This document shows positions 21,566 through 34,490 of a stretch of DNA of 64,000 nt, piece after piece. The stretch spans positions 1 through 64,000 of the forward strand of contig JAFRHL010000026.1 in assembly GCA_017433295.1 (NCBI GenBank), written 5' to 3'. Within the stretch, counting starts at the first letter, position 1; the number at the start of each line of letters is the position of its first letter. The notes beneath the pieces are model-generated. The model saw nothing but the letters and a program-made list of their open reading frames with translations. It ran no database searches and was not told the DNA's origin. Both the position numbers and the translations under genes were made by a program. The DNA comes from Eubacterium sp. GTDB taxonomy: Bacteria; Bacillota; Clostridia; Lachnospirales; Lachnospiraceae.

Positions 21566-23065
21566 TTAATCTTCTTTTTTCTTTTCTTCCGTTTTCTCTT
21601 CCGATGTCGATTCCTCTGTTTTATCGTCCTTCCCTTCCTGATCTTTTTCCGCACCATCTTTATGCTTGGCTGCTTCGGCAATGGCGTCCTTCTTCTGAAG
21701 GTCCAGTCCGTAATTGGCTGCCAGACGGATCAGGTCCTCATCACCTGAGTTATTGATGATATCATAGAAATAAGGATAGGCCTTTTCAGTATTTCCCAGA
21801 CGTTTATAGCACATAGCTAAATAATACAGGGTCTGATAGCTCTTCTCATACTTGTAGGAAGCTTCCAGATCCTTTTTTGCTTCCTCATACTTATAGGTAT
21901 CAAAGAGTGACTTGCCGCTCTCATAGAGCTGGCTGGCAGCTCTGGGAGATGCATTCTCCTTCATGGTGGTATAAAGCTGTCTGGAAGTCTCGGAAGGAAG
22001 AAGGTCCGCATCTACCTTTGCAAGTTCTTCGGCACACTTCTCATAATCACTCTGCTCATAAGCCTGCAGAGCTTTTAACATACAATCGTACATACTGTCC
22101 TTCCCATCAGAACCTTCGTAAACGCTGAGGCTCTTGTTCAGAGAATTGTTCGTCTTCTCAAGAGACTCCTTATCACTCTGGAGTTCGGCAATCTCTGCGT
22201 CCTTTTTATTGACCGTCTCTTTATACTCTTTTTTCAGATTATTATAATCTACACTGACGCCGGCCCGGACACTTGGGATAACAAGGACAAACATTACAAT
22301 GACACCGATGGCAAGACCGATGAGCATATAAACAAACTGCTTCCAGGTCTCCTTATTGGGATCCTCATAATGATCCACAGGGCGGACATTTTTAAGATTA
22401 TCATTATCCTTGGTAGTGATCCGGGTAGGGATCTCCTCCAGGCTGGGGGCTTTCCCCTCTCCTATCTCGATGAGGTACTTGCGGGCAGTTGTGTTATAAT
22501 TGTCCACTGCCAGAGCATTATTCAGGTCGTTCTTGGCCTCTTCCTTGTCCCCGGCCCGCATATGCAGCAGGGCAAAAAGGAGATGGCCTCTCACAAAATT
22601 CGGTGTGAGGCTCAAAACCTTCTTGATCTGGATCATGGCAAGGTCATCACTGCCCTGCCTGGCGTAAGATAATGCCAGGTTAAACTTCTTGGCTGTCTCA
22701 TTGATCTCTTCAAATACAGCCGGATGCTCCTCCATCTCCCTGATATAAAGAACGGCATTATTCTCGTCAATATTACTCAGCCTGGCACTGATCTGCCACT
22801 GGATATAAGCTTTGCCCTTCTCACCCATCTCATAAAAAACAAGTCCCAGCAGGTTCCTTGCGTCTTTATGTTCTTTGTTATAAGTCAATGCCCTGGTAAG
22901 GTGGGTAACAGCCCCGCTTAAGTCTCTCATCTGTACTTTCTCAAGCCCGATATTATAATAATAGTTGGCTGTATTGTGGGCTTTGGCAATATGTTTATTA
23001 CTGAAACCGCAGCCGGTGCAAAAGCCGTCTGCACCGACATTACGGCCGCATCTGATGCATTTCAT
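21566..23065 (-). CDS. Zinc-ribbon, TPR-repeat membrane protein
   Basis: This 499-residue protein begins with a rubredoxin-like zinc ribbon (CIRCG at 3-7 and CTGCG at 16-20). TPR repeats follow to about residue 205. A single transmembrane helix (about 245-265, QFVYMLIGLAIGVIVMFVLV) is followed by a coiled coil (about 272-315, KKDAEIAELQSDKESLEKT), more TPR-like helices, and a Lys/Glu-rich acidic tail. The topology puts the ribbon and first TPR block in the cytoplasm and the second TPR block outside. The function is unknown; a scaffold linking cytoplasmic and envelope partners is my inference. The start ATG 23065 follows AGGA. It is the last gene of the valS-containing run and ends at a clear terminator. 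Confidence 0.82.
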   Translation of the reverse strand: MKCIRCGRNVGADGFCTGCGFSNKHIAKAHNTANYYYNIGLEKVQMRDLSGAVTHLTRALTYNKEHKDARNLLGLVFYEMGEKGKAYIQWQISARLSNIDENNAVLYIREMEEHPAVFEEINETAKKFNLALSYARQGSDDLAMIQIKKVLSLTPNFVRGHLLFALLHMRAGDKEEAKNDLNNALAVDNYNTTARKYLIEIGEGKAPSLEEIPTRITTKDNDNLKNVRPVDHYEDPNKETWKQFVYMLIGLAIGVIVMFVLVIPSVRAGVSVDYNNLKKEYKETVNKKDAEIAELQSDKESLEKTNNSLNKSLSVYEGSDGKDSMYDCMLKALQAYEQSDYEKCAEELAKVDADLLPSETSRQLYTTMKENASPRAASQLYESGKSLFDTYKYEEAKKDLEASYKYEKSYQTLYYLAMCYKRLGNTEKAYPYFYDIINNSGDEDLIRLAANYGLDLQKKDAIAEAAKHKDGAEKDQEGKDDKTEESTSEEKTEEKKKED

Positions 23066-23391: not shown

Positions 23392-26034
23392 TTATTTTTT
23401 GAGCTGGGCCAGCCTCTGGGCCACCTGCCCGGACATTGCGGTATATTTGGCCAGTTTTTCCTTTTCGGCTTCAACCTTGGACGCAGGAGCCTTGCTGACA
23501 AATCTCTCATTATTCAGCATACCTCTGGCACGTTTGATCTCACCTTCCAGACGTTTTGCCTCTTTTTCAAGACGGGCGATCTCCTTTTCCACATCCACAA
23601 GATCCGCAAAGGGAATATAAATAACCGCATCCGGAATTACAGTAGATACCGCATCCTCCGCAATACCGCTTCTGTCCTGCTGTACATACACATCACTGGC
23701 ATAACCCAGTGTGGCAAAGAATACTTTGGAATGTTCAAAGGTCTCCCTTATCTCCTCTTTTTCTGATACGACATAAACGGTTGCTTTTCTGCTGGGCGGA
23801 ACATTCATATCCGCGCGCATATTACGGATATTTCGCACTGCCGTTTTAATGATCTCAACCTCCTGCTCCTCTGACCTGAAGTTATACTCTTCCTTATAAA
23901 CGGGCCAGTCGGAGATCATAATCGACTCTTCCTCATCCTGCATGCTGCAGAAGATCTCCTCTGTAATAAAAGGCATGAAAGGATGCAGCAATTTCAATGC
24001 CGTGATCAGGACATTCTTTAAGGTAAAAAGAGCGGCGGCCTTGGTGGCATCCCCGTCATTGTACAATCTGGGTTTTACCATCTCAATATACCAGTCACAG
24101 AACTCTTCCCAGATGAAGTCATAGAGCTTGGATACAGCAATACCCAGATCATAATTCTCCATGTTTTCGGTGACTTCCTTTACCAGGGTGTTGGCCTTGG
24201 AAAGGATCCATTTATCAGCCGGGGTCAAATCCGCCTCTGTTACCCCCGACAGGTCGGCTTTTTCGATATTCATCAGCATGAAACGGGAAGCGTTCCATAC
24301 CTTATTGGCAAAGTTACGGCTGGCAAGGATCTTCTTTTCGGAAAAACGCATGTCATTACCGGGAGCATTCCCTGTCACCAGGGTAAGGCGAAGGGCATCG
24401 GCACCATACTGGTCGATTACCTCCAGGGGATCTATACCGTTCCCCAGGGACTTGCGCATCTTACGGCCCTGCTCATCCCTTACCAGGCCATGGATCAGAA
24501 CATCATGGAAGGGAGACTTCCCTGTGTGTTCATAACCCGAAAATACCATGCGGATGACCCAGAAAAAGATAATATCATATCCTGTCACCAGCACACTGGT
24601 GGGGTAGAAGTAATCCAGGTCCTCTGTCTTCTCAGGCCATCCCAGGGTGGAGAAGGGCCACAGGGCACTGGAAAACCATGTATCAAGGGTGTCCTCATCC
24701 TGCACCAGATGCCGGCAGCCGCATTTCGGACAGGCTTCGGGCATGGACCGGGCTACCACGATCTCTCCGCATTCCTGACAGTAATATGCCGGTATACGGT
24801 GTCCCCACCATAACTGCCTGGATATACACCAGTCCCGGATATTGTTAAGCCAGTGGAGATAGGTACGGTCGAAATGCTCCGGCACAAAACGTAGCTCACC
24901 GTTCTTTACAGCCGCGATTGCAGGCTTTGCCAGTTCCTCCATCTTAACAAACCACTGCTTCTTTACCATGGGCTCTACCGTGGTATGACAGCGGTCATGG
25001 GTCCCGACATTATGATCGTGCTTTTCGATCCGCACAAGATAGCCGCCTGCTTCCAGGTCTTTCACGATGGCCTCTCTGGCTTCATAACGGTCCATACCGG
25101 CGTATTTCCCGCCATTCTCATTGATGGTTCCGTCATCATTCATGATATTGATCTCCGGCAGGTCATGACGCCTTCCTACTTCAAAGTCATTGGGATCATG
25201 GGCCGGTGTGATCTTAACCGCTCCGGTCCCGAATTCTTTATCCACATAGGTGTCGGCGATCAGGGGGATCTCTTTATTCACAAGGGGAAGAAGCAGCTTC
25301 TTTCCGACAAGGTCCTTATATCTTTCGTCCTCAGGGTGAACTGCCACCGCAGTATCTCCCAGCATGGTCTCGGGTCTGGTGGTGGCTATCTCTATGCATC
25401 GGTCCGTCCCGATGACGGGGTAGTTGATATGCCAGAAATGTCCTGCCTGATCCTCATACTCCACCTCGGCATCCGAGATGGAAGTCTGACATACAGGACA
25501 CCAGTTGATGATACGGGACCCTCTGTAAATGTATCCCTTCTCATACAAACGGATAAACACTTCCTCCACTGCCCTGGAACAGCCTTCATCCAGTGTAAAA
25601 CGCTCCCTGTCCCAGTCCGCGGAGGAGCCCAGCTTCTTAAGCTGGCTGACTATGCGTCCGCCGTATTCCTCTCTCCACTCCCAGGTGCGTTTCAGGAAGC
25701 CTTCTCTTCCCAGCTCTTCCTTGTCAATTCCTTCTTCCTTTAACTTATTGATTACCTTTACCTCTGTGGCAATGCTGGCATGATCTGTGCCGGGCTGCCA
25801 CAGGGCATTATAACCCTGCATACGTTTAAAACGAATCAGGATATCCTGCAGTGTATTATCCAGGGCATGTCCCATGTGGAGCTGCCCTGTAATATTAGGC
25901 GGGGGCATGACGATGGTAAAGGGTTTTTTACTCCTGTCTGCCTCAGCATGGAAGTACTTCTTATCCATCCATTTCTGATAAAGTCTGTCTTCAATCTCCG
26001 CCGGATTGTAGGTCTTGTTCATCTGCGTTGCCAT
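23392..26034 (-). CDS. valS: Valyl-tRNA synthetase
   Basis: This 880-residue class I synthetase charges tRNA-Val. The signature HMGH is at 53-56 ([11 protein letters not shown]). The second signature reads KMRKS at 525-529 instead of the usual KMSKS: the third residue is Arg (codon CGC). The editing domain, the anticodon-binding domain and a C-terminal coiled-coil arm (about 810-880, [19 protein letters not shown]) are all present. The start ATG 26034 has AGGAGG upstream. Only 58 bases separate it from the TPR gene above, so no T-box leader can be present. Confidence 0.97.
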
Positions 26035-26092: not shown

Positions 26093-26983
26093 TTAATTAG
26101 GTCTGTTTTCTATAGTATAACTAATAGGGAGATTTGTCACGAGTAAATTTTCATCCATGTATAATTCTTTGCGGAATTCCTGCCGGAGTCCGGCAATAAA
26201 CTGTTCCAGAAGCCTCCGGGCTTCCTCCTGTCTCTCATGATCCATGAGATAACGGATCCTCTTTCCGGCTGCGGCAGCGCCGGTATAGCGAAAGCTGTCG
26301 CTGATCCCCGCAAATCTGCTCTCAAAGGATTCCGTCACCACATCGGAAACATGAAATCCCTCGATCTCTTCCCGGGCATGCTGGATATCTTCTGTAATTG
26401 CTATTACACAAAAATAATAAAACAGAGAGTCCTCACTGCCTCCATACTGGTATGCTTTCAAAAAGTCTACTTTGGCATCTTCAAAACGAAACAGTCTGAT
26501 TTTTGCTGCCGCCATGTTATGGTATACCTTTCCCTGGTTTGCGGCATCGAGGGTTTCGAATTTAAGTGCCTCTTTATAGTAAAAAACAGCCATGGAACTG
26601 CGGCCCGCCTCAAGATACATATCACCGATCCACTTGCACTGCATGGGATAAGGGGTATTCTTAAGCTCCCTGTACCTGTCCAGGATATTTCTTATGTCTT
26701 CTTCGGAAAAATAATTACCTTCTCTGAACAAGGCGGCAAAAAACTTCATCTGATCCCTGTTGGGATCTCTCATCTTCACAAGCTGCCGATACAGCTTATT
26801 AAGCTTCAGTTCATCTCTGATATACTCCAGCAGGCTCTCCTCCGGGAGTGTATAAAGATAGCACAGCATATGGCCGCTCAGATAATAGCATAATTCTTCA
26901 TAAGAGAAAACAGAGATGCCTGTTTCCGGAAAAGTATAAGGCCTTGACCCCACCTCTCCCGTACATACGATGGTTTCTTTCAT
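26093..26983 (-). CDS. TPR-like helical protein of the DUF5717 module
   Basis: This 296-residue cytoplasmic protein is mostly helical, with TPR-type repeats visible from about residue 130 (KWIGDMYLEAGRSSMAVFYY, then YHNMAAAKIRLFRFEDAKVD). The N-terminus has a short beta-rich segment (FPETGISVFSYEEL). It follows the actin-like gene by 14 bases behind AAGGAGAG and precedes valS by 58 bases. The family is not recognised. Adjacency suggests it acts with the two upstream proteins, probably as an adaptor (inference). Confidence 0.75.
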   Translation of the reverse strand: MKETIVCTGEVGSRPYTFPETGISVFSYEELCYYLSGHMLCYLYTLPEESLLEYIRDELKLNKLYRQLVKMRDPNRDQMKFFAALFREGNYFSEEDIRNILDRYRELKNTPYPMQCKWIGDMYLEAGRSSMAVFYYKEALKFETLDAANQGKVYHNMAAAKIRLFRFEDAKVDFLKAYQYGGSEDSLFYYFCVIAITEDIQHAREEIEGFHVSDVVTESFESRFAGISDSFRYTGAAAAGKRIRYLMDHERQEEARRLLEQFIAGLRQEFRKELYMDENLLVTNLPISYTIENRPN

Positions 26984-26997
26984 AGTGTTTCTCTCCT

Positions 26998-28098
26998 TCA
27001 GGTTATCAGATGGAAAGGAAATACGGTTACCTTTCCTGTAGCCGGAAACATGGATCCGAATCCCATATCTGTGATAAGGATCACTCCTGATGTAGGTGAT
27101 GTGAAATCAACCTTAATGTGAAGCCTGGTGGTCCTGGGGGGTCTTCCCGAAAGATCTCTGATCTCGCAGCTGCTGCATTCCATCTCATTTTCCCGGGAAT
27201 TGTGATAAAAGAATTCCACTTTCTGGCTTTTATCCATGATAATATCAATGGTTCCACCTGTATTATACCACTCTTTTCCGATGGTGGCGACAGGGACATA
27301 ATGAACCCGTCCCGCTTCCTGGCTGATGATTCCGATGGTATGCTGGACCATCTCCGGTCCCTGCATCAGGATCATCCCCTCTTCCATCAGGGGAACCATG
27401 CCCATTCCCAGAAGACATGCTCCGTTGGCATACAGATTCTGTCCCAGAAAAACTCTCCTGCCTGCGCAGAGATAATTAAGAGTTCTTTTCATCCAGCTGC
27501 CTTCAAAGCCTTCTCCTGTCAGATAGATGATATGAGCAGGATGCTTGACCAGATAATTCTTCATCATCCGGCTGAAATTCAGGTCCAGTTCCGGGGAGTC
27601 CTCCTGAATATCATATTCTGTGGTATCTATTTCACTTAAGACGGCCCTGTAGGCCCTCTGCCTGGCACGCCGGATCTGTTCTATAAAAATGCAGGAAAGC
27701 CTGCCCCCAGAGTATTCCAGCAGCATGGTGTTCCTGTCCCAGACAGCCCGTTCCTGATGGAAAACATACTCCACAAAAGCCCGGAACCTGGTAATAACAT
27801 TGACCCTGTGATACTTTGTAAAACTTTCTCCCAGGATTCTGGCCAGGGCCCTGCGGGCATCAGGATCTGTATCCTCCATAGAGAAATTCACTTCCTGAAA
27901 TGTATCCCATGCCAGCTGGTTTGTTTCCATATATTTTAGGACAAGGTCGATCCCGGCGCTGATATAATCCTTTTCATCCGGCACAAGGGGAAAGCTTTCC
28001 TCCGCCATTTCTCCCGGACCTTCATCAAAGATACTCAGCCGGACTGCATTTTTTCCCAAATCAATTCCTGCAAACTGCCGTGTCTTCAGTTGTTCCAT
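26998..28098 (-). CDS. Actin/Hsp70-fold-like protein (DUF5716-like)
   Basis: This 366-residue protein starts with a phosphate-1-like motif, FAGIDLGKNAVRLSIF (residues 9-24), the hallmark of the actin/Hsp70/sugar-kinase fold, and has a second glycine-containing motif HIIYLTGEGFEGSWM in the C-terminal half, where the adenosine motif is expected. No peptide-binding domain follows, so it is not a DnaK. From memory it corresponds to the Lachnospiraceae family DUF5716. It follows the DUF5717-like gene by 18 bases. Nucleotide binding is likely but the fold call is by eye; its biological role is unknown. Confidence 0.72.
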   Translation of the reverse strand: MEQLKTRQFAGIDLGKNAVRLSIFDEGPGEMAEESFPLVPDEKDYISAGIDLVLKYMETNQLAWDTFQEVNFSMEDTDPDARRALARILGESFTKYHRVNVITRFRAFVEYVFHQERAVWDRNTMLLEYSGGRLSCIFIEQIRRARQRAYRAVLSEIDTTEYDIQEDSPELDLNFSRMMKNYLVKHPAHIIYLTGEGFEGSWMKRTLNYLCAGRRVFLGQNLYANGACLLGMGMVPLMEEGMILMQGPEMVQHTIGIISQEAGRVHYVPVATIGKEWYNTGGTIDIIMDKSQKVEFFYHNSRENEMECSSCEIRDLSGRPPRTTRLHIKVDFTSPTSGVILITDMGFGSMFPATGKVTVFPFHLIT

Positions 28099-28116
28099 AA
28101 TAACCTCTACTTAATA

Positions 28117-31100
28117 CTATAACAATGTTATAAACTCATCAGCAAAAAATGCTTTCAAAAGGTATTTCTCCAGTTCGGAATAACTGTCTTCTCCCGTAAG
28201 ATGATTCAGTTCAAAGAATCTGCTGTCCTCCCCCTCATATTCAAAGGTCTCAAACAGGATATCCTCCTCATTCTGAACCGGTTCTCCGTCTGCCTCCAGC
28301 CGGTAATTAACATGATCTCTCTGGTAAAAGTGAAGGGAAGTAATATACAGGCCGGGCAGCACCTCCAGCAGGTGTTTTTCTCTTGTGTCTCCGCTTTCCC
28401 CTTCAATCCTGTAATATAAGATAATATTCCTTTTTTCTCCGCCTTTATAAGTAAGGAAGGTCCTCTCGCTGTAATCAATGGGAAAGGATACCCATTCCCT
28501 GTAGGCCTGATATACGGGCAGATAAAATTCTTCCTTCAGGAACTCATTCACAACCATGGAGGCTGCCTCCTGAATCTGTTCATGATATCCCGTCTTATCT
28601 GCAAAATAATACAGAAATCTGACCTTACTTCTTTTATCCTTTATTCTTCCATTTAAGATCTCCCTGCCGATAATAACATGGATGGACTCCGGCAGGACCA
28701 TATCCTTGTAAAGCTCCATGTCGGAAAGATGCTTAAGGTATTCTTCCGTCAGGGGATCTGAAGGCATACTGTCATAAAAAGACTCAAAAACAGGAAATAC
28801 TCCTTCTGTGTTATTACCGGTAAACATACTCTGGCGCAGGATCTTTCTCTCAAATTCTGCTGTTTCAAGCTCCATTTTCCGGCTCCGCTCCCAGATGATC
28901 AGGAGGTCCTCCAGCTCACCATCGAAGAAAGCCATAAGGTAGCTTAATGTGTCCCGATTATATTTTTTGCGCAGGAAGGCGGACCAGGCAAGGGATAATG
29001 TCATCTCTTCCTTGTTATCTTTATTGCGTTTCACCCCGAAGGTCGCCAGCTTTAACTGCTTGGCGGCTCCCATGATATGAGTTCCGTACAGTTCTATACC
29101 GAAAAATGCATTCTCCGTCATTCCGGCTTCCATATAATAATCCATCAGCTTTTTGCGGAATCCGGGCGAAATACCTGAATAATCTGTTTTCTCCAGCCAC
29201 CTGGCCAGTTCCTTTTTATCCTGATGGTCTTCATAATATTTCAGCAGCTTTTCCAGGGCCCTTGACTGCATCCAGGGCTGATAATCCTCATTAAAGGCAA
29301 TATTTCGCAGGACAGGCAGTTCTTCGGCTGTGACCGGCTCATCCACCTTATCGGAAAGGTTCTGCAGGATCTTTCTGTTGGAAAGATTATGAAGGATCCA
29401 TTCCTCCGGCATCTGCTCCGGCTTCAGGAAGGACCGGACTTCATATCTGATCCCGGTAACATAGCGCTGTTCCGAAGAATCCACAAAATAGATAACGGCT
29501 CTCCGGTTTACAAGCTGTACATAACTGCTTCCTCCGGAGAAAGGATAATAATTCTCCTCACCGGTCTCGGGATTGCCGATATAAAGGCCGATGATCCCCG
29601 GATTCATGCAGCGGATCTTCCGGAAAAATAATACATCACAGACCGCCTTTGCATTTTCGGGCTTTTCCAGGATCTCCTTCTGAAAATGTGTGTAAAGAAA
29701 AGCCAGATGTTCGTTCATATGTCCTTTAAGAAGCTGCTCTTCTACAAAGGGGATCATCTTGGAATAATAAGCTCCGAAGACTTCTTCATAGGAATCCCTG
29801 TTCTTTAAAATGTTCGTATATAAATATGCTTTTTCCACATAGTCAAGGCTGTTGCTGTAGGTAAAATAGATGAGGACCCTCTGGGGTATCTTTTCATATC
29901 TGGTAAAATCCATGCTTCTTATGAAAAACTCATTCAGGCCGATTATCTTAAGATTGGCCTGCACCGCGTCATAAAAATATTCATGGAATTCCTTTCCGGT
30001 TTTATTTCCTTTAATCAGAAGTGAACAGATCACCTGAAGGAATTGCTCATCCGGTTCCACCTTATAAAGCCTCTCAGCCACAGAAAATATGGACCGGCTG
30101 TAAAATTTCAGTTTCAGTGCCAGTCTCGCAAACTGGTAAGCCAGTGACATGGAGACAAAGCCATACCGGACGCCCCAGCGGAATACGCTGATCTCAAAGG
30201 CGCCGGCCTCCTCCATGTAATTGGGGTTCTCGTTCAATATCTCACAGGCTTCAAAATACAGCAGGCAGCTGTTATTTCCCGACTGGAACAGTTGTCTGAT
30301 GGTATCATACTGCAGCCTTTTATTGTAAACATACTCTCTGTCCAGATAGATCAGCATCCACAGTGCTTCCGCTTTATAGTCACTGGACTCATAAAAACTT
30401 CGAATGGAAGCCACCGCCTCCCCGATGGTCTCCGGAGTGCGGTAGATCATTGCTTTCAGATAAAGCAGATAATGGGCCGCCAGGGGAGGAAAGGGCCTTT
30501 CTTCCTGATATGCTTCTATCTCTTTCTCAAGCTCTTTTGCCTGGTCGACGGACTGCTCCATCAATAGCAGCTGAATCAGGTAGAGCTTCCAGACCTTATC
30601 TTCTGTCAGGTAAAGCAGGTCCTCCAGAGTATGATGGGCTTCCTGGGCAAAATCCTCAAAACCGATACTGCCGGTCCGAAAGTAAAGGTAATTGTGCATC
30701 AGTTCAGCCTTAAGCTGCTTAATGCTGACTTCATTCCTTTTCTCCTTCCCGGGATCCGCCCCCTTCTCCCACCATTCCACATTAATAAGCAGGTCCTGCC
30801 TGATGGTGCTAATATGGATAATATCCGATCCGGATGTCCTTTTCTGATTTTTCTCTATGAGAACCTCAAGGGTATTCTCATGAAAGTCTTCACTGGAAAA
30901 ACGTTCTGCGGACAATCTGACCTGGTTTCTTTCCGTAAAGATCCTTCCTTCCAGATAGCCCGGTCCCGAAAGCTTTAATACCAGCTTCCCGCTTTCTTCC
31001 CCTTCATTTAAAAAGATCGATTTCTCTTCGGTCTCTATGGAAATCTGCTCTTTATATCCTGCAGCAGTCATGAATTCTTCCAGGATCAGGGGCTTTGAAC

Positions 31101-31623
31101 GGCTTTTCATCAGGCTGTGATATAAAGCCCTCTTTTCGGGATCGTGTTTTAAAAAGACCTCCGGAAAACTGGACAGAAAAAACAATTCCATGGCCTCCCG
31201 GGGATACTGCGCATATAACCGGGCAAATTCTTCCATGGAAGATATTCTCCCCACAGACGTCTCTGCAGATTTGGGGACCACCCGGATCCGGTAGGGAATA
31301 TTAAACTCTCCGCCGTTGGTCAAGATGACAAAGTCACCTTCAAACTCGCTGCCGGCAACGGACAGCTTCCCTTTAAAATAATACTTTATCTCTGTTTTCA
31401 CACCGGAAATCTCTGCTTTATCGACACCCAGCTTATCATTGGTGGAAAAGACATGGCCCCGGACCGGAACCTGATTCTCACTGATCACAAGAAAAGAATT
31501 CTTATATACTTTCCCTTCCTCGATCTCAATATCCAGATTAGTCACCGAAATAGTAACCTGGGGTTTGATAAATGCCTGATTCTCTGTTTCGTAATATTTC
31601 TTTTCTTTCAACTTTATCACCAA
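28117..31623 (-). CDS. Giant solenoid protein (DUF5717-like)
   Basis: This 1168-residue protein starts 6 bases after the subtilase stop. Residues 1 to about 270 are beta-rich, with two Ig-like segments (VTISVTNLDIEIEEG, and KLVLKLSGPGYLEGRIF). The central 300-950 region is a long alpha-helical solenoid reminiscent of TPR arrays, and the C-terminal 150 residues return to beta structure. There is no signal peptide or membrane helix, so it is cytoplasmic. The size and neighbours fit the uncharacterised family DUF5717. The ribosome-binding site is weak (GGGA), suggesting coupling to the upstream gene. A large scaffold working with the actin-like protein is my inference. Confidence 0.75.
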   Translation of the reverse strand: MVIKLKEKKYYETENQAFIKPQVTISVTNLDIEIEEGKVYKNSFLVISENQVPVRGHVFSTNDKLGVDKAEISGVKTEIKYYFKGKLSVAGSEFEGDFVILTNGGEFNIPYRIRVVPKSAETSVGRISSMEEFARLYAQYPREAMELFFLSSFPEVFLKHDPEKRALYHSLMKSRSKPLILEEFMTAAGYKEQISIETEEKSIFLNEGEESGKLVLKLSGPGYLEGRIFTERNQVRLSAERFSSEDFHENTLEVLIEKNQKRTSGSDIIHISTIRQDLLINVEWWEKGADPGKEKRNEVSIKQLKAELMHNYLYFRTGSIGFEDFAQEAHHTLEDLLYLTEDKVWKLYLIQLLLMEQSVDQAKELEKEIEAYQEERPFPPLAAHYLLYLKAMIYRTPETIGEAVASIRSFYESSDYKAEALWMLIYLDREYVYNKRLQYDTIRQLFQSGNNSCLLYFEACEILNENPNYMEEAGAFEISVFRWGVRYGFVSMSLAYQFARLALKLKFYSRSIFSVAERLYKVEPDEQFLQVICSLLIKGNKTGKEFHEYFYDAVQANLKIIGLNEFFIRSMDFTRYEKIPQRVLIYFTYSNSLDYVEKAYLYTNILKNRDSYEEVFGAYYSKMIPFVEEQLLKGHMNEHLAFLYTHFQKEILEKPENAKAVCDVLFFRKIRCMNPGIIGLYIGNPETGEENYYPFSGGSSYVQLVNRRAVIYFVDSSEQRYVTGIRYEVRSFLKPEQMPEEWILHNLSNRKILQNLSDKVDEPVTAEELPVLRNIAFNEDYQPWMQSRALEKLLKYYEDHQDKKELARWLEKTDYSGISPGFRKKLMDYYMEAGMTENAFFGIELYGTHIMGAAKQLKLATFGVKRNKDNKEEMTLSLAWSAFLRKKYNRDTLSYLMAFFDGELEDLLIIWERSRKMELETAEFERKILRQSMFTGNNTEGVFPVFESFYDSMPSDPLTEEYLKHLSDMELYKDMVLPESIHVIIGREILNGRIKDKRSKVRFLYYFADKTGYHEQIQEAASMVVNEFLKEEFYLPVYQAYREWVSFPIDYSERTFLTYKGGEKRNIILYYRIEGESGDTREKHLLEVLPGLYITSLHFYQRDHVNYRLEADGEPVQNEEDILFETFEYEGEDSRFFELNHLTGEDSYSELEKYLLKAFFADEFITLL

Positions 31624-31629
31624 TCCCGT

Positions 31630-33489
31630 TTATTTCGTCCTCAATATCCCTTTTCCCTGACTGCTTCTTCCTGCCCGCTTGCCAAAGATGGCCTTTACCT
31701 TGTAAGTATATTTCTTCCCTCCGGACACTTTGCTGTCCACAAAGGTCTGCTTACCGGAGGATGTCTCGCCGATTTTCGTGGTTCTTCCCCCGGCCACTTT
31801 ACGATAGATGATATATTTTTTTGCTGTCTTTATTTTCTTCCAGCTGATCAGGATACCTCTCTTTTTATTTGCCAGGCTGATCGTAAAGCCTTGCCCGGAT
31901 TTCTTCTTTGCGGCAGGATCGGATTTTATCAGTCCTTTGCTGAAAAGATTTCCCATCTTCGGGCATCCCCAGCCGAAATATTTATCTTTTCCTTTAGTTC
32001 CCAGATCCACCGACATGCTTCTTAGCTGCTTTTCCACCCTTGCTGTGGATATTCCGGGATTCATCATTTTTATATAAGCTATGGCAGCAGACACATGAGG
32101 TACTGCCATGGAGGTCCCGGTCATATAAGCAAACTGTCCCTTTACATAGGCACTTACTATCTGCGTCCCGGGTGCGGCAAAATCTACTGTATTACCATAG
32201 TTTGAATAATATTTCCTCTTTCCTGTCTGTCTGCTGATAAAGCTTCCCCGGCCGCCATTGGAATTGATGGCGGAAACTATGATGGGTATCCCTGTATTGG
32301 CCGGATACGAGTACTTTATGCTTACCCCGTCGTTTCCTGCTGCCGAACAGACCGGGATCCCCCTTTGACGGGCTTTTTTTAAAATTCCATTCAGGTATTT
32401 ATACCGGCAGGCCCTTTTTCCTGTCACACCCATACTGAGATTAATAACCTGGACTTTTTTTCTTACTGCGTAACGTAAGGCGTTCCTGATCAGGTAAAGG
32501 CTTGCTCTCCCCCTTTTATCGGTAACCTTCAGGGCTAATATTTTGACATTTTCCGGGGTCGCATCCGCTATGATCCCTGATACATGGGTACCGTGGCCGA
32601 TGGAGTCGGAAACATCCGTATTGGCAGCGGCAAAGTTATAACTGTCACTCCGTATCCGGTCTCCTTCAAACAGGAAATAGGACCTGTTCACTCCGGAGTC
32701 AATCACGGCTACGGTCACCTGCTTGTTATAACCATAATAGGCTGCCCTGCTCTTTAACTGGTTCATCTGCATGTACCTGTTCCCCCAGGACAGGCAGAAG
32801 GCCGCAGGCGGCAGTAAGCCGGTCTCCGAGCTCTTGAGGATATCTCCAAAATAATAAAGCTCATCTACAAAGCAGCGGGAGCTTCCATATTTCCTGCATG
32901 CCCTGTTATAGGCCTCCCTTGTCTGCTCCTGGGTCTCAAACTCCAGAATGGTCTCGGAATCTGCCCTGTTATAATAAACCCGGGAAGCGCCCAGCAGATC
33001 TCTCGTAAGGATCCTGTCAATGATCAGACGCTTTGTCTGGTAAGGGGCCTTTACCTCAATGTCTCCCTGTTCATTTTTCTCAACCTGGTAAATCGTTTCG
33101 GGGTCATTTTTCTCCAGATAGCTTTTCAGGGCTGCTTCTGACTGCAGCGCCTGTCTTGCATCCCCCCTGCTGGTATTAAATTCCTCCTCCAGACGCTCTG
33201 TTTCCCCGTCCTTCCTGATCTCTGTGTCTGATGTGTCTGAAATGAGGATACTCCCAAATTCTTCCTTCCCCTGTTCAGAATACAGGGTCTCTGATATTTC
33301 TTTGTAATCTGATAATTCCTCGATTCGCTCCGGACCACTTTCCTCTGTCCCGGCGGCTTCTTCGGTCTTTATACTCTGCGTCAGGTCATCTGCTGCCCTT
33401 ACCGCAATACTGCAGACCGGAACCCGGAAAAGAGCTGCAAGCAGGCAAAATAATACAAGTATATAATAAACAGTCTTTTTATTATTCAT
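31630..33489 (-). CDS. Secreted subtilisin-family serine protease with C-terminal FnIII-like domain
   Basis: This 619-residue protein has a signal peptide (KKTVYYILVLFCLLAALF) and a pro-region to about residue 200, then an S8 peptidase domain with the triad Asp264 (VAVIDSG), His299 (GHGTHVSG) and Ser460 (GTSMAVPH). After about residue 545 comes a fibronectin type III-like module (ISWKKIKTAKKYIIYRK). I chose ATG 33489 with GGGAGA 5 bases upstream; a TTG at 33519 overlapping dus is possible. The catalytic residues are intact. It sits between dus and the DUF5717-like gene with almost no spacing, so it is co-transcribed with a cytoplasmic module, an odd pairing. Confidence 0.9.
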   Translation of the reverse strand: MNNKKTVYYILVLFCLLAALFRVPVCSIAVRAADDLTQSIKTEEAAGTEESGPERIEELSDYKEISETLYSEQGKEEFGSILISDTSDTEIRKDGETERLEEEFNTSRGDARQALQSEAALKSYLEKNDPETIYQVEKNEQGDIEVKAPYQTKRLIIDRILTRDLLGASRVYYNRADSETILEFETQEQTREAYNRACRKYGSSRCFVDELYYFGDILKSSETGLLPPAAFCLSWGNRYMQMNQLKSRAAYYGYNKQVTVAVIDSGVNRSYFLFEGDRIRSDSYNFAAANTDVSDSIGHGTHVSGIIADATPENVKILALKVTDKRGRASLYLIRNALRYAVRKKVQVINLSMGVTGKRACRYKYLNGILKKARQRGIPVCSAAGNDGVSIKYSYPANTGIPIIVSAINSNGGRGSFISRQTGKRKYYSNYGNTVDFAAPGTQIVSAYVKGQFAYMTGTSMAVPHVSAAIAYIKMMNPGISTARVEKQLRSMSVDLGTKGKDKYFGWGCPKMGNLFSKGLIKSDPAAKKKSGQGFTISLANKKRGILISWKKIKTAKKYIIYRKVAGGRTTKIGETSSGKQTFVDSKVSGGKKYTYKVKAIFGKRAGRSSQGKGILRTK

Positions 33490-33515: not shown

Positions 33516-34490
33516 TCAATCAAAATCTTCCCGGCAATTTCGCCCGGGCTGCGCCTCTGAAAACCATTGGTCTACTATCATTTTGTACTCAGAAAGACGG
33601 GTACACTTTTTTATTCTCCTGCCTGTCTTTTCTGAACCCGGAAATTCCCAGAGCAGATAACTCCACAGTTCTTTCATCTTAAAAAGCACATTTCTATCCC
33701 CGGACATAATATTCTCATAGCCTGTACAGATCTCATCATGAAACATTTTAAGCCGTCCCATATCCCTGTCAGTGCCGTTTACGATCATCTCCTGCAGCTG
33801 GGGGTTGGCTATGATTCCCCTTCCCAGCATTATACGGGTCACCTCAGGTATTTCTTTCTCAAACCGGGACTCATCTTCTAATGTAAATATATCTCCATTG
33901 TAGCATACCGGATGCCGGCAGGCCCGGAGAGCCTGTCTGAAGATATCTCTTCGTGCCGGCTTTTTATACAGGTCCTTCTGGACCCTGGCATGCAGTACGA
34001 TTTCCGATAAAGGAAACTGATTATAAATCTTCATTAAAGTCAGTATTTCTTCCGGATCTTCCATACCCAGACGCGTTTTGACAGAAAGCTCAATGGTGAT
34101 ATTCCTCTGAAGCCTGTATTCAAAAAATTTGTCAAAAAATGCTTTCAGCTTGTCCGGATCTTTCAGGAAGCCGCTCCCTTTCCCCTTTGACACCACAGTC
34201 CCGGAGGGGCATCCCAGGTTGAGATTGACTTCTCTGTAACCCAGATCATGCAGAAGCTCTGCGGAACAGATCATGGCCTCCGCAGAATTCGTAAGGACCT
34301 GAGGGACCAGAGGAATCCTGTGATTGTGGTCCGGCAAAATCTCCGCTTTCTCCCTGGAAGTCCACCCCTTCTTCTTTCCCGGACTTAAAAACGGAGTATA
34401 ATACTTTACTATTCCCGGATAATAATGATGGTGAGCATTGCGCCATATATACCCGGTTATACCTTCCATGGGAGCCGCATAAAAATACAT
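33516..34490 (-). CDS. dus: tRNA-dihydrouridine synthase
   Basis: This 324-residue flavoenzyme reduces uridines in the tRNA D loop. The FMN-binding barrel begins with YAAPMEGIT; the active-site Cys is in NLNLGCPSGTVVSKGKGSGFL, and LGRGIIANP is the phosphate-binding loop. The start ATG 34490 has AGGAG upstream. It follows purC by 31 bases and ends next to the subtilase gene. The exact paralogue (A, B or C) cannot be assigned by eye. Confidence 0.93.
   Translation of the reverse strand: MYFYAAPMEGITGYIWRNAHHHYYPGIVKYYTPFLSPGKKKGWTSREKAEILPDHNHRIPLVPQVLTNSAEAMICSAELLHDLGYREVNLNLGCPSGTVVSKGKGSGFLKDPDKLKAFFDKFFEYRLQRNITIELSVKTRLGMEDPEEILTLMKIYNQFPLSEIVLHARVQKDLYKKPARRDIFRQALRACRHPVCYNGDIFTLEDESRFEKEIPEVTRIMLGRGIIANPQLQEMIVNGTDRDMGRLKMFHDEICTGYENIMSGDRNVLFKMKELWSYLLWEFPGSEKTGRRIKKCTRLSEYKMIVDQWFSEAQPGRNCREDFD

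Follow-up and report, generated by a model that had tools for sequence, protein, structure and literature searches.

The window analysed here is the whole 64,000-nucleotide stretch of Eubacterium sp. DNA (contig JAFRHL010000026.1, positions 1 to 64,000). Its positions 26093-33489 carry, on the minus strand, a subtilase gene followed by DUF5717, DUF5716, and a TPR-type gene. This report concerns the last three genes, which probably descend from a larger set of chaperone genes. An earlier note, made from the DNA letters alone, had described four tightly packed genes and had guessed that two of them were DUF5717-like and DUF5716-like. The list of open reading frames (ORFs) confirmed the positions and the gaps of 6-18 bases, and the Pfam scores of both families lay above their cut-offs. 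The four genes are listed below, with "full cluster" denoting the longer arrangement found in related families.

31630-33489, minus strand: subtilase, a secreted subtilisin-like protease (PF00082, E 5.7e-40; secretion signal read by eye)
28117-31623, minus strand: DUF5717, a putative scaffold of 1168 residues (Pfam PF18984 and PF18983)
26998-28098, minus strand: DUF5716, a predicted pseudo-Hsp70 of 366 residues (Pfam PF18980)
26093-26983, minus strand: putative TPR-type adaptor of 296 residues (alignment with full-cluster TPR proteins; DUF5716-TPR fusion in four relatives)

The intergenic gaps from the subtilase through DUF5717 and DUF5716 to the TPR gene are 6, 18, and 14 bases. DUF5717 matched PF18984 (E 1.7e-204, 681.7 bits) and PF18983 (E 1.1e-45, 156.6 bits; cut-off 25 bits), and DUF5716 matched PF18980 (E 7.5e-77, 258.6 bits; curated cut-off 34.7). 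The TPR matches of the last gene in Pfam were all below threshold, and its product could be aligned over the greater part of its length to unmistakable TPR proteins, being a shorter form of the approximately 387-residue TPR protein of the full cluster.

A conserved three-gene unit in Lachnospiraceae

DUF5717, DUF5716, and the TPR gene were adjacent and co-oriented in 35/35 Lachnospiraceae loci, the window included, so the neighbourhood conservation that the earlier note had proposed to check was found, and the gene order is not a product of chance. Since 34 of the 35 loci had been picked for holding DUF5716 or DUF5717, the finding is the adjacency and not the presence. DUF5716 and the TPR gene were separate in 31 of these loci and fused in four, with both halves confirmed by hidden Markov models, and this fusion is the strongest indication that DUF5716 and the TPR protein pair physically. 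In the sampling of Lachnospiraceae genera, DUF5716 was present in 117 of 120, with one match per genome in those 117. In one of the three misses, DUF5717 is close to the end of its contig and DUF5716 may lie beyond it; the remaining two were also without a DUF5717 match. The conserved unit is DUF5717-DUF5716-TPR, and the subtilase is separable from it. The non-overlap filter applied to the ORFs hid some true genes, namely DUF5716 of locus L070 and probably the TPR genes of L222 and L224.

In 15/35 Lachnospiraceae loci, the TPR gene is followed by a gene for a coiled-coil protein, in which two hydrophobic segments were read from the alignment. The same gene was seen in 25 of 26 named loci with this short form of the cluster.

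Probable derivation of DUF5716 from Hsp70

The predicted structure of DUF5716 consists of an actin-fold nucleotide-binding domain followed by a substrate-binding beta-sandwich, in agreement with the actin/Hsp70 superfamily fold that had been proposed for this 366-residue protein. Its two domains are as follows.

27373-28080, minus strand: degenerate Hsp70 nucleotide-binding domain, DUF5716 residues 7-242
27010-27372, minus strand: substrate-binding beta domain, DUF5716 residues 243-363, with an invariant D-x-G-F-G end motif and no alpha lid

The protein had also been said to have no chaperone tail. Residues 243-363 align with the Hsp70 substrate-binding beta domain, and only the alpha-helical lid is missing: in the model, the beta domain comes last and reaches to residue 363 of 366. 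Using hhalign, the Lachnospiraceae DUF5716 profile was matched to the sequence of Hsp70B, one of the intact Hsp70s of the full cluster, with a probability of 99.6 and an E-value of 3.1e-24 over 407 columns. A DUF5716 profile that included full-cluster members matched solved DnaK with an E-value of 1.1e-15. In the structural alignment, the ranking of which draws on Foldseek, alignments longer than 300 residues, and thus spanning both domains, were confined to Hsp70/Hsp110-type chains among the 50 matches listed. Descent of DUF5716 from an Hsp70 appears almost certain.

The same comparisons bear on the proposal that the locus encodes a cytoskeletal or cell-division ATPase, in which DUF5716 would be an FtsA-, ParM-, or PilM-like actin polymerising on DUF5717 or anchoring an assembly there. 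Besides the both-domain alignment to Hsp70/Hsp110-type chains, the window DUF5716 had no MreB, FtsA, or ParM match in Pfam at E-values up to 1, its nucleotide motifs are lost, and Hsp70B is its nearest paralogue in the tree described below. Profile, tree, and whole-length structural alignment give a degenerate Hsp70 lacking residues needed for ATP hydrolysis, and related families place DUF5716 among three intact Hsp70s and a GrpE-domain protein. The cytoskeletal actin, now very improbable, was dropped as the lead because of the both-domain alignment and the Hsp70B relationship.

Seven catalytic residues were tested at the phosphate-1, phosphate-2, Lys70, and Glu171 positions, with numbering and roles that we take to be those of E. 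coli Hsp70. Their counts refer to distinct sequences, and those for domain spacing and motif regions include repeated genomes. All seven residues were kept in 0/133 distinct DUF5716 sequences (0/78 and 0/55), with at most three in any one. They were kept in 160/160 distinct sequences of the three intact Hsp70s (58/58 Hsp70A, 57/57 Hsp70B, and 45/45 Hsp70-vWA). In the window DUF5716, the phosphate-2 and adenosine positions are only 60 residues apart versus a median of 138 in full-cluster DUF5716, and a large part of the IIB region is missing. To judge by these residues, it is highly probable that DUF5716 does not hydrolyse ATP.

The state of the ATP site also bears on a second explanation, according to which DUF5716 would serve the housekeeping DnaK as Hsp110 serves eukaryotic Hsp70, acting as exchange factor or holdase, while DUF5717 and the TPR protein deliver clients. 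Hsp110 requires bound ATP, whereas the ATP-site residues are gone in DUF5716. The loss in the IIB region also argues against an Hsp110-like role, as does the finding that no Hsp70 gene was matched at any of the 35 Lachnospiraceae loci, and we consider this explanation unlikely.

The full multi-Hsp70 cluster in related families

In other families of the Lachnospirales, DUF5716 lies in a full cluster with the order DUF5717, Hsp70A, GrpE-ended helical protein, DUF5716, Hsp70B, Hsp70-vWA, and TPR, where DUF5717 is encoded by one ORF or by two (approximately 400 and 900 residues). Among 36 other-family loci, picked for the presence of DUF5716 or DUF5717, the series DUF5717-Hsp70A-GrpE-like-DUF5716-Hsp70B was found in this order on one strand in 32, in some cases with intervening genes. 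As for the four exceptions, L100 and L107 are cut off by the end of the contig, in L099 only DUF5717 is present, and in L104 none.

In the cluster of locus L061, the three Hsp70s matched PF00012 (E 4.5e-96, 7.4e-63, and 5.1e-76), and the VWA domain matched PF00092 (E 1.9e-10). A GrpE domain (PF01025, E 3e-13, 50.2 bits, cut-off 25.8) occupies residues 517-641 of the protein encoded at L061:10870-12804. The PF01025 scan was performed on this one GrpE-like protein, and the others were assigned by alignment. Searched against the PDB, the GrpE-like protein matched 4ani with an E-value of 3.8e-6. No J-domain was matched among the L061 cluster proteins.

The named loci divide in the same way. Those from L131 to L183 come from Defluviitalea(ceae), Candidatus Epulonipiscium, and termite-gut and other uncultured relatives, with some clusters broken up by other genes, and include the full cluster of Defluviitalea phaphyphila Alg1 (L135). 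Those from L184 to L209, mostly labelled Lachnospiraceae, Butyrivibrio, or Anaerocolumna, have the short form only. The DUF5717 alignment excludes L132, and the Hsp70-vWA alignment excludes L135.

Three further observations were made on these clusters. In the nearest full cluster (genome G003, L063:4205-11353), the GrpE-like gene is short (279 residues) and the frames of the vWA-Hsp70 and the TPR protein are each split, owing to either decay or sequencing error. L099 (genome G141) carries a two-ORF DUF5717 without Hsp70 genes in the 19.9 kilobases read, possibly another independent reduction. In 11 non-Lachnospiraceae loci (L085, L086, L087, L088, L089, L090, L094, L096, L098, L099, and L100), the gene immediately upstream of DUF5717 encodes a further protein of 354-482 residues whose N-terminal segment is hydrophobic, and the two examples scanned had no Pfam match above cut-off.

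Probable loss of the ATP-cycle genes in Lachnospiraceae

A tree of 93 rows was built with a short search and SH-aLRT (Shimodaira-Hasegawa-like approximate likelihood ratio test) support only, and was rooted on cellular Hsp70s. To exclude the vWA domain, only 505 residues of each Hsp70-vWA row were used in both the tree and the motif alignment. Hsp70A, Hsp70B, and Hsp70-vWA each formed one clade, DUF5716 was sister to Hsp70B (support 99), and the Lachnospiraceae DUF5716 joined that of the full-cluster holder G003 (support 100). Three Hsp70 genes located elsewhere in the window genome, DnaK included, grouped with the cellular Hsp70s.

The flanking genes were also compared. A divergent CobD-like aminotransferase gene lies upstream in 10/35 Lachnospiraceae and 20/36 other loci, with a gene between in L100; in the two examples scanned, TIGR01140 was the best match, below its cut-off. 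The valyl-tRNA synthetase gene valS lies downstream both of the short form (window and L184) and of full clusters (L063 and L137), with TIGR00422 above cut-off in all four. These common flanks indicate that the short form and the full cluster occupy the same chromosomal address.

The missing genes were then sought across 14 Lachnospiraceae genomes. The best match of the Hsp70-vWA profile was a DnaK-length frame in 14/14 (297-312 bits), against 1266-1369 bits in three controls in which the gene is unbroken. Another eight Hsp70-like frames, from five of the 14 genomes, were each (8/8) scored higher by the cellular Hsp70 model than by the Hsp70A, Hsp70B, or Hsp70-vWA models. The GrpE-like protein was found at full length in 0/14 genomes, with short GrpE-type matches in four. 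It is very probable that the Lachnospiraceae lost Hsp70A, Hsp70B, Hsp70-vWA, and the GrpE-like gene, rather than that the other families gained them.

In an order-wide sample, DUF5716 was present in 71/146 and DUF5717 in 75/146 genomes, so the module is not universal in the order. DUF5717 was matched in 11/291 class genomes, 10 of them Lachnospiraceae and 1 weak, and in 4/299 phylum genomes, all Lachnospiraceae. Hsp70-vWA was matched in 0/196 class genomes at an E-value of 1e-150, in a sample that itself held no positive (the profile gave an E-value of 0 in three other genomes).

Predicted architecture of DUF5717

The AlphaFold2 model of DUF5717 had a predicted local distance difference test (pLDDT) score of 81.7 and a predicted template modelling (pTM) score of 0.51, the latter meaning that the domains are clearer than the overall shape. 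The domains are given below; the first two rest on the model and structural comparison, and the remainder on the model.

31243-31560, minus strand: PapD/ASH-like Ig domain 1, residues 22-127
30769-31041, minus strand: PapD/ASH-like Ig domain 2, residues 195-285
29632-30744, minus strand: alpha solenoid, residues 294-664
29431-29625, minus strand: beta insert, residues 667-731
28501-29406, minus strand: alpha solenoid, residues 740-1041
28255-28461, minus strand: C-terminal beta domain, residues 1055-1123

The profile of DUF5717 gave one match among PDB sequences, with an E-value of 0.14. The expectation of two helical scaffolds beside the actin-fold protein was upheld, these being DUF5717 and the TPR protein.

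The subtilase and other neighbouring genes

The subtilase start codon is the ATG at 33489. Its ORF opens also at a TTG at 33519, from which the subtilase frame would overlap the upstream dihydrouridine synthase frame. The two flanking genes are as follows.

33516-34490, minus strand: tRNA-dihydrouridine synthase (PF01207; model match in 12/14 genus loci, mostly adjoining the subtilase)
23392-26034, minus strand: valyl-tRNA synthetase, valS, the downstream flank (TIGR00422 above cut-off)

The 14 loci read from the genus were picked for having both genes on one contig, and all of them (14/14) carry a related subtilase upstream of DUF5717 and co-oriented with it. An inverted gene stands between the two in three of them (L218, L223, and L227), and two other genes do so in L226. 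Outside the genus, a one-sequence subtilase model matched only L115 among the other 34 Lachnospiraceae loci, and there on the opposite strand. The subtilase is probably a genus-level, lineage-specific neighbour and not part of the conserved unit. L220 (genome G547) has two tandem subtilase genes upstream of DUF5717.

The earlier note had taken the tie to an exported protease as a hint of envelope remodelling. Because the link is confined to the genus and is interrupted by the inverted gene in 3/14 loci, envelope remodelling by the subtilase falls outside the conserved unit. A cytoplasmic assembly that prepares or controls the exported protease would fit the 6-base gap in the window and the same-strand arrangement in all 14 genus loci, and is made most improbable by the single opposite-strand match beyond the genus and by the intervening genes in L226 and the three inverted cases.

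Downstream of valS, the window encodes at 21566-23065 (minus strand) a protein that starts with a zinc-ribbon-like part, followed by TPRs, a likely membrane span, and further TPRs. Relatives of it lie downstream of valS in L113, L115, L116, L123, L126, and L184, some with one intervening gene.

Proposed role of the module

With a probability of roughly 0.6, the sequence comparisons point to the module being what is left of a dedicated machine of several Hsp70s found in a single bacterial order, with DUF5716 as an ATP-independent holder or adaptor on the scaffold. In the full version, a scaffold of DUF5717, the pseudo-Hsp70 DUF5716, the TPR adaptor, and in some cases the membrane coiled-coil protein would present a client. 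Three intact lidless Hsp70s, with the GrpE-ended helical protein as exchange factor, would work on this client, one of them docking via its vWA domain. The Lachnospiraceae would have lost the four ATP-cycle genes and kept the scaffold. In the resulting short form, the DUF5716 beta domain may grip a client or partner, and the scaffold and pseudo-Hsp70 may hold or organise the client without ATP. DUF5716 would be bound to the TPR protein, and both would dock on DUF5717, close to the membrane in loci that retain the coiled-coil protein. That the three proteins form one complex is likely, a holder or adaptor function for DUF5716 is more tentative, and client holding and membrane tethering are inferred.

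Several results weigh against this remnant-machine interpretation. The Lachnospiraceae-only DUF5716 profile gave a marginal match to solved DnaK (E 0.0012, first domain only), so that a strong Hsp70 match was obtained only with full-cluster members (the E-value of 1.1e-15) or against Hsp70B, and the window DUF5716 alone had no PF00012 match at E-values up to 1. The first Asp was retained in 49/56 Lachnospiraceae DUF5716, as were the glycines of two former nucleotide motifs, so ATP may still be bound without hydrolysis. DUF5716 is fast-evolving, and long branches meet in the tree. The tree also does not fix the root inside DUF5716, so that the argument for loss rests on the sister relation to Hsp70B, synteny, and parsimony. 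The coiled-coil gene is patchy, being found in 10/36 other-family loci besides the 15/35 given above, and missing from the window locus and 12/14 genus loci, namely those extending past DUF5717 (L228 and L230 end at DUF5717). Membrane tethering is therefore not general.

In its widest form, the proposal is of an undescribed, order-specific, scaffold-borne chaperone machine combining a pseudo-Hsp70 with three lidless Hsp70s, a built-in GrpE domain, and a vWA arm, of which the Lachnospiraceae lost the energy half and kept the core as an ATP-free assembly scaffold; we put this forward as a possibility somewhat short of even odds. Almost all sampled genera of a major gut family have retained the triplet, and no role for it was found in the open-licence literature. 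An origin in an Hsp70 machine names the residues and partners to examine, and related bacteria, which differ in whether the ATP-driven half is present at this chromosomal address, provide a natural experiment. The case also suggests that an inactive chaperone can persist after every active member of its set has gone, a point relevant to the conversion of pseudo-enzymes into structural proteins.

Comparison with conflict systems and other known systems

Another explanation is that the cluster is a conflict system (anti-phage or cell-suicide), similar to the GTPase-centred Hsp70 and GrpE systems or to CoCoNuTs, and that the window copy has decayed. Precedents in conflict loci are given in the relevant parts of two papers, for Hsp70 with GrpE and TPR (PMC7159879) and for a degenerate Hsp70 with vWA (PMC11090510). 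In addition, Hsp70B and Hsp70-vWA of L061 matched the PADLOC candidate PDC-M61B (E 8.7e-11 and 4.4e-7, about 190 residues). Against this, no GTPase, McrB, nuclease, or effector domain was matched in the seven L061 cluster proteins at E-values up to 0.01, and DUF5717, DUF5716, and the TPR protein of the window had no PADLOC match. The single DUF5716 match per genome in 117 genomes, often with the same neighbours, is unlike patchy defence islands. DUF5717 matched no plasmid record, and two of four phage records matching it look, when examined, like chromosome fragments. A conflict system is highly improbable on this evidence and was rejected. The two records, L234 and L235 (MT835486.1 and MT835988.1), are filed as human-faecal bacteriophage and are unverified scaffolds with bacterial-looking genes around the module. 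They carry DUF5717-DUF5716-TPR-coiled-coil, and valS-like frames adjoin it in L234.

The remnant-machine interpretation can be set beside known families. Pfam lists DUF5716 and DUF5717 (PF18980, PF18984, and PF18983) as unknown, and the descriptions returned mention neither an Hsp70 origin nor the cluster. The open-licence literature yielded no paper on DUF5716 or DUF5717 as families, on their Pfam accessions, or on the cluster, the one item listed for DUF5716 being a cancer paper, and the earlier note's description of an undescribed system stands to that extent. Hsp70/DnaK (PF00012) with GrpE has the same layout of nucleotide-binding and substrate-binding beta domains as DUF5716, and the full clusters contain three intact Hsp70s and a GrpE domain; DUF5716 differs in having neither the catalytic residues nor the lid and only some of the IIB region. 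The PapD/ASH and TPR scaffolds (HYDIN, CEP192, and Paf1/Ctr9) are like DUF5717 in having two tandem PapD/ASH-like domains followed by an alpha solenoid. This likeness is one of fold only, with whole-chain template modelling scores of 0.07-0.19 among the 50 matches listed and no sequence relation shown.

Among GTPase-centred GAP1-N2 conflict systems, a subset with HSP70 and GrpE has been reported (Kaur et al., 2020; PMC7159879). As described in the part of that paper dealing with this subset, these resemble the full cluster in that Hsp70 and GrpE share a gene cluster of their own, together with a reduced second Hsp70 and TPR repeats. They differ in that the unit described here is a core Lachnospiraceae locus and not a patchy conflict system, and no GTPase or GAP1-type partner was found in the seven L061 cluster proteins, three L063/L064 proteins, or the scanned window proteins. 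CnuD of the CoCoNuTs is, according to the pertinent section of PMC11090510, a degenerate Hsp70 with a TerY-like vWA, and common to both systems are a degenerate Hsp70 with nucleotide-binding and substrate-binding domains, helical repeats, and vWA. In the full cluster, by difference, the vWA is fused to an intact Hsp70, and no McrB/McrC, nuclease, or RNA-binding domains were matched in the L061 cluster proteins. As far as these parts of the two papers go, the GAP1-N2 systems and the CoCoNuTs are the nearest published arrangements, and both differ from the present cluster in their core genes.

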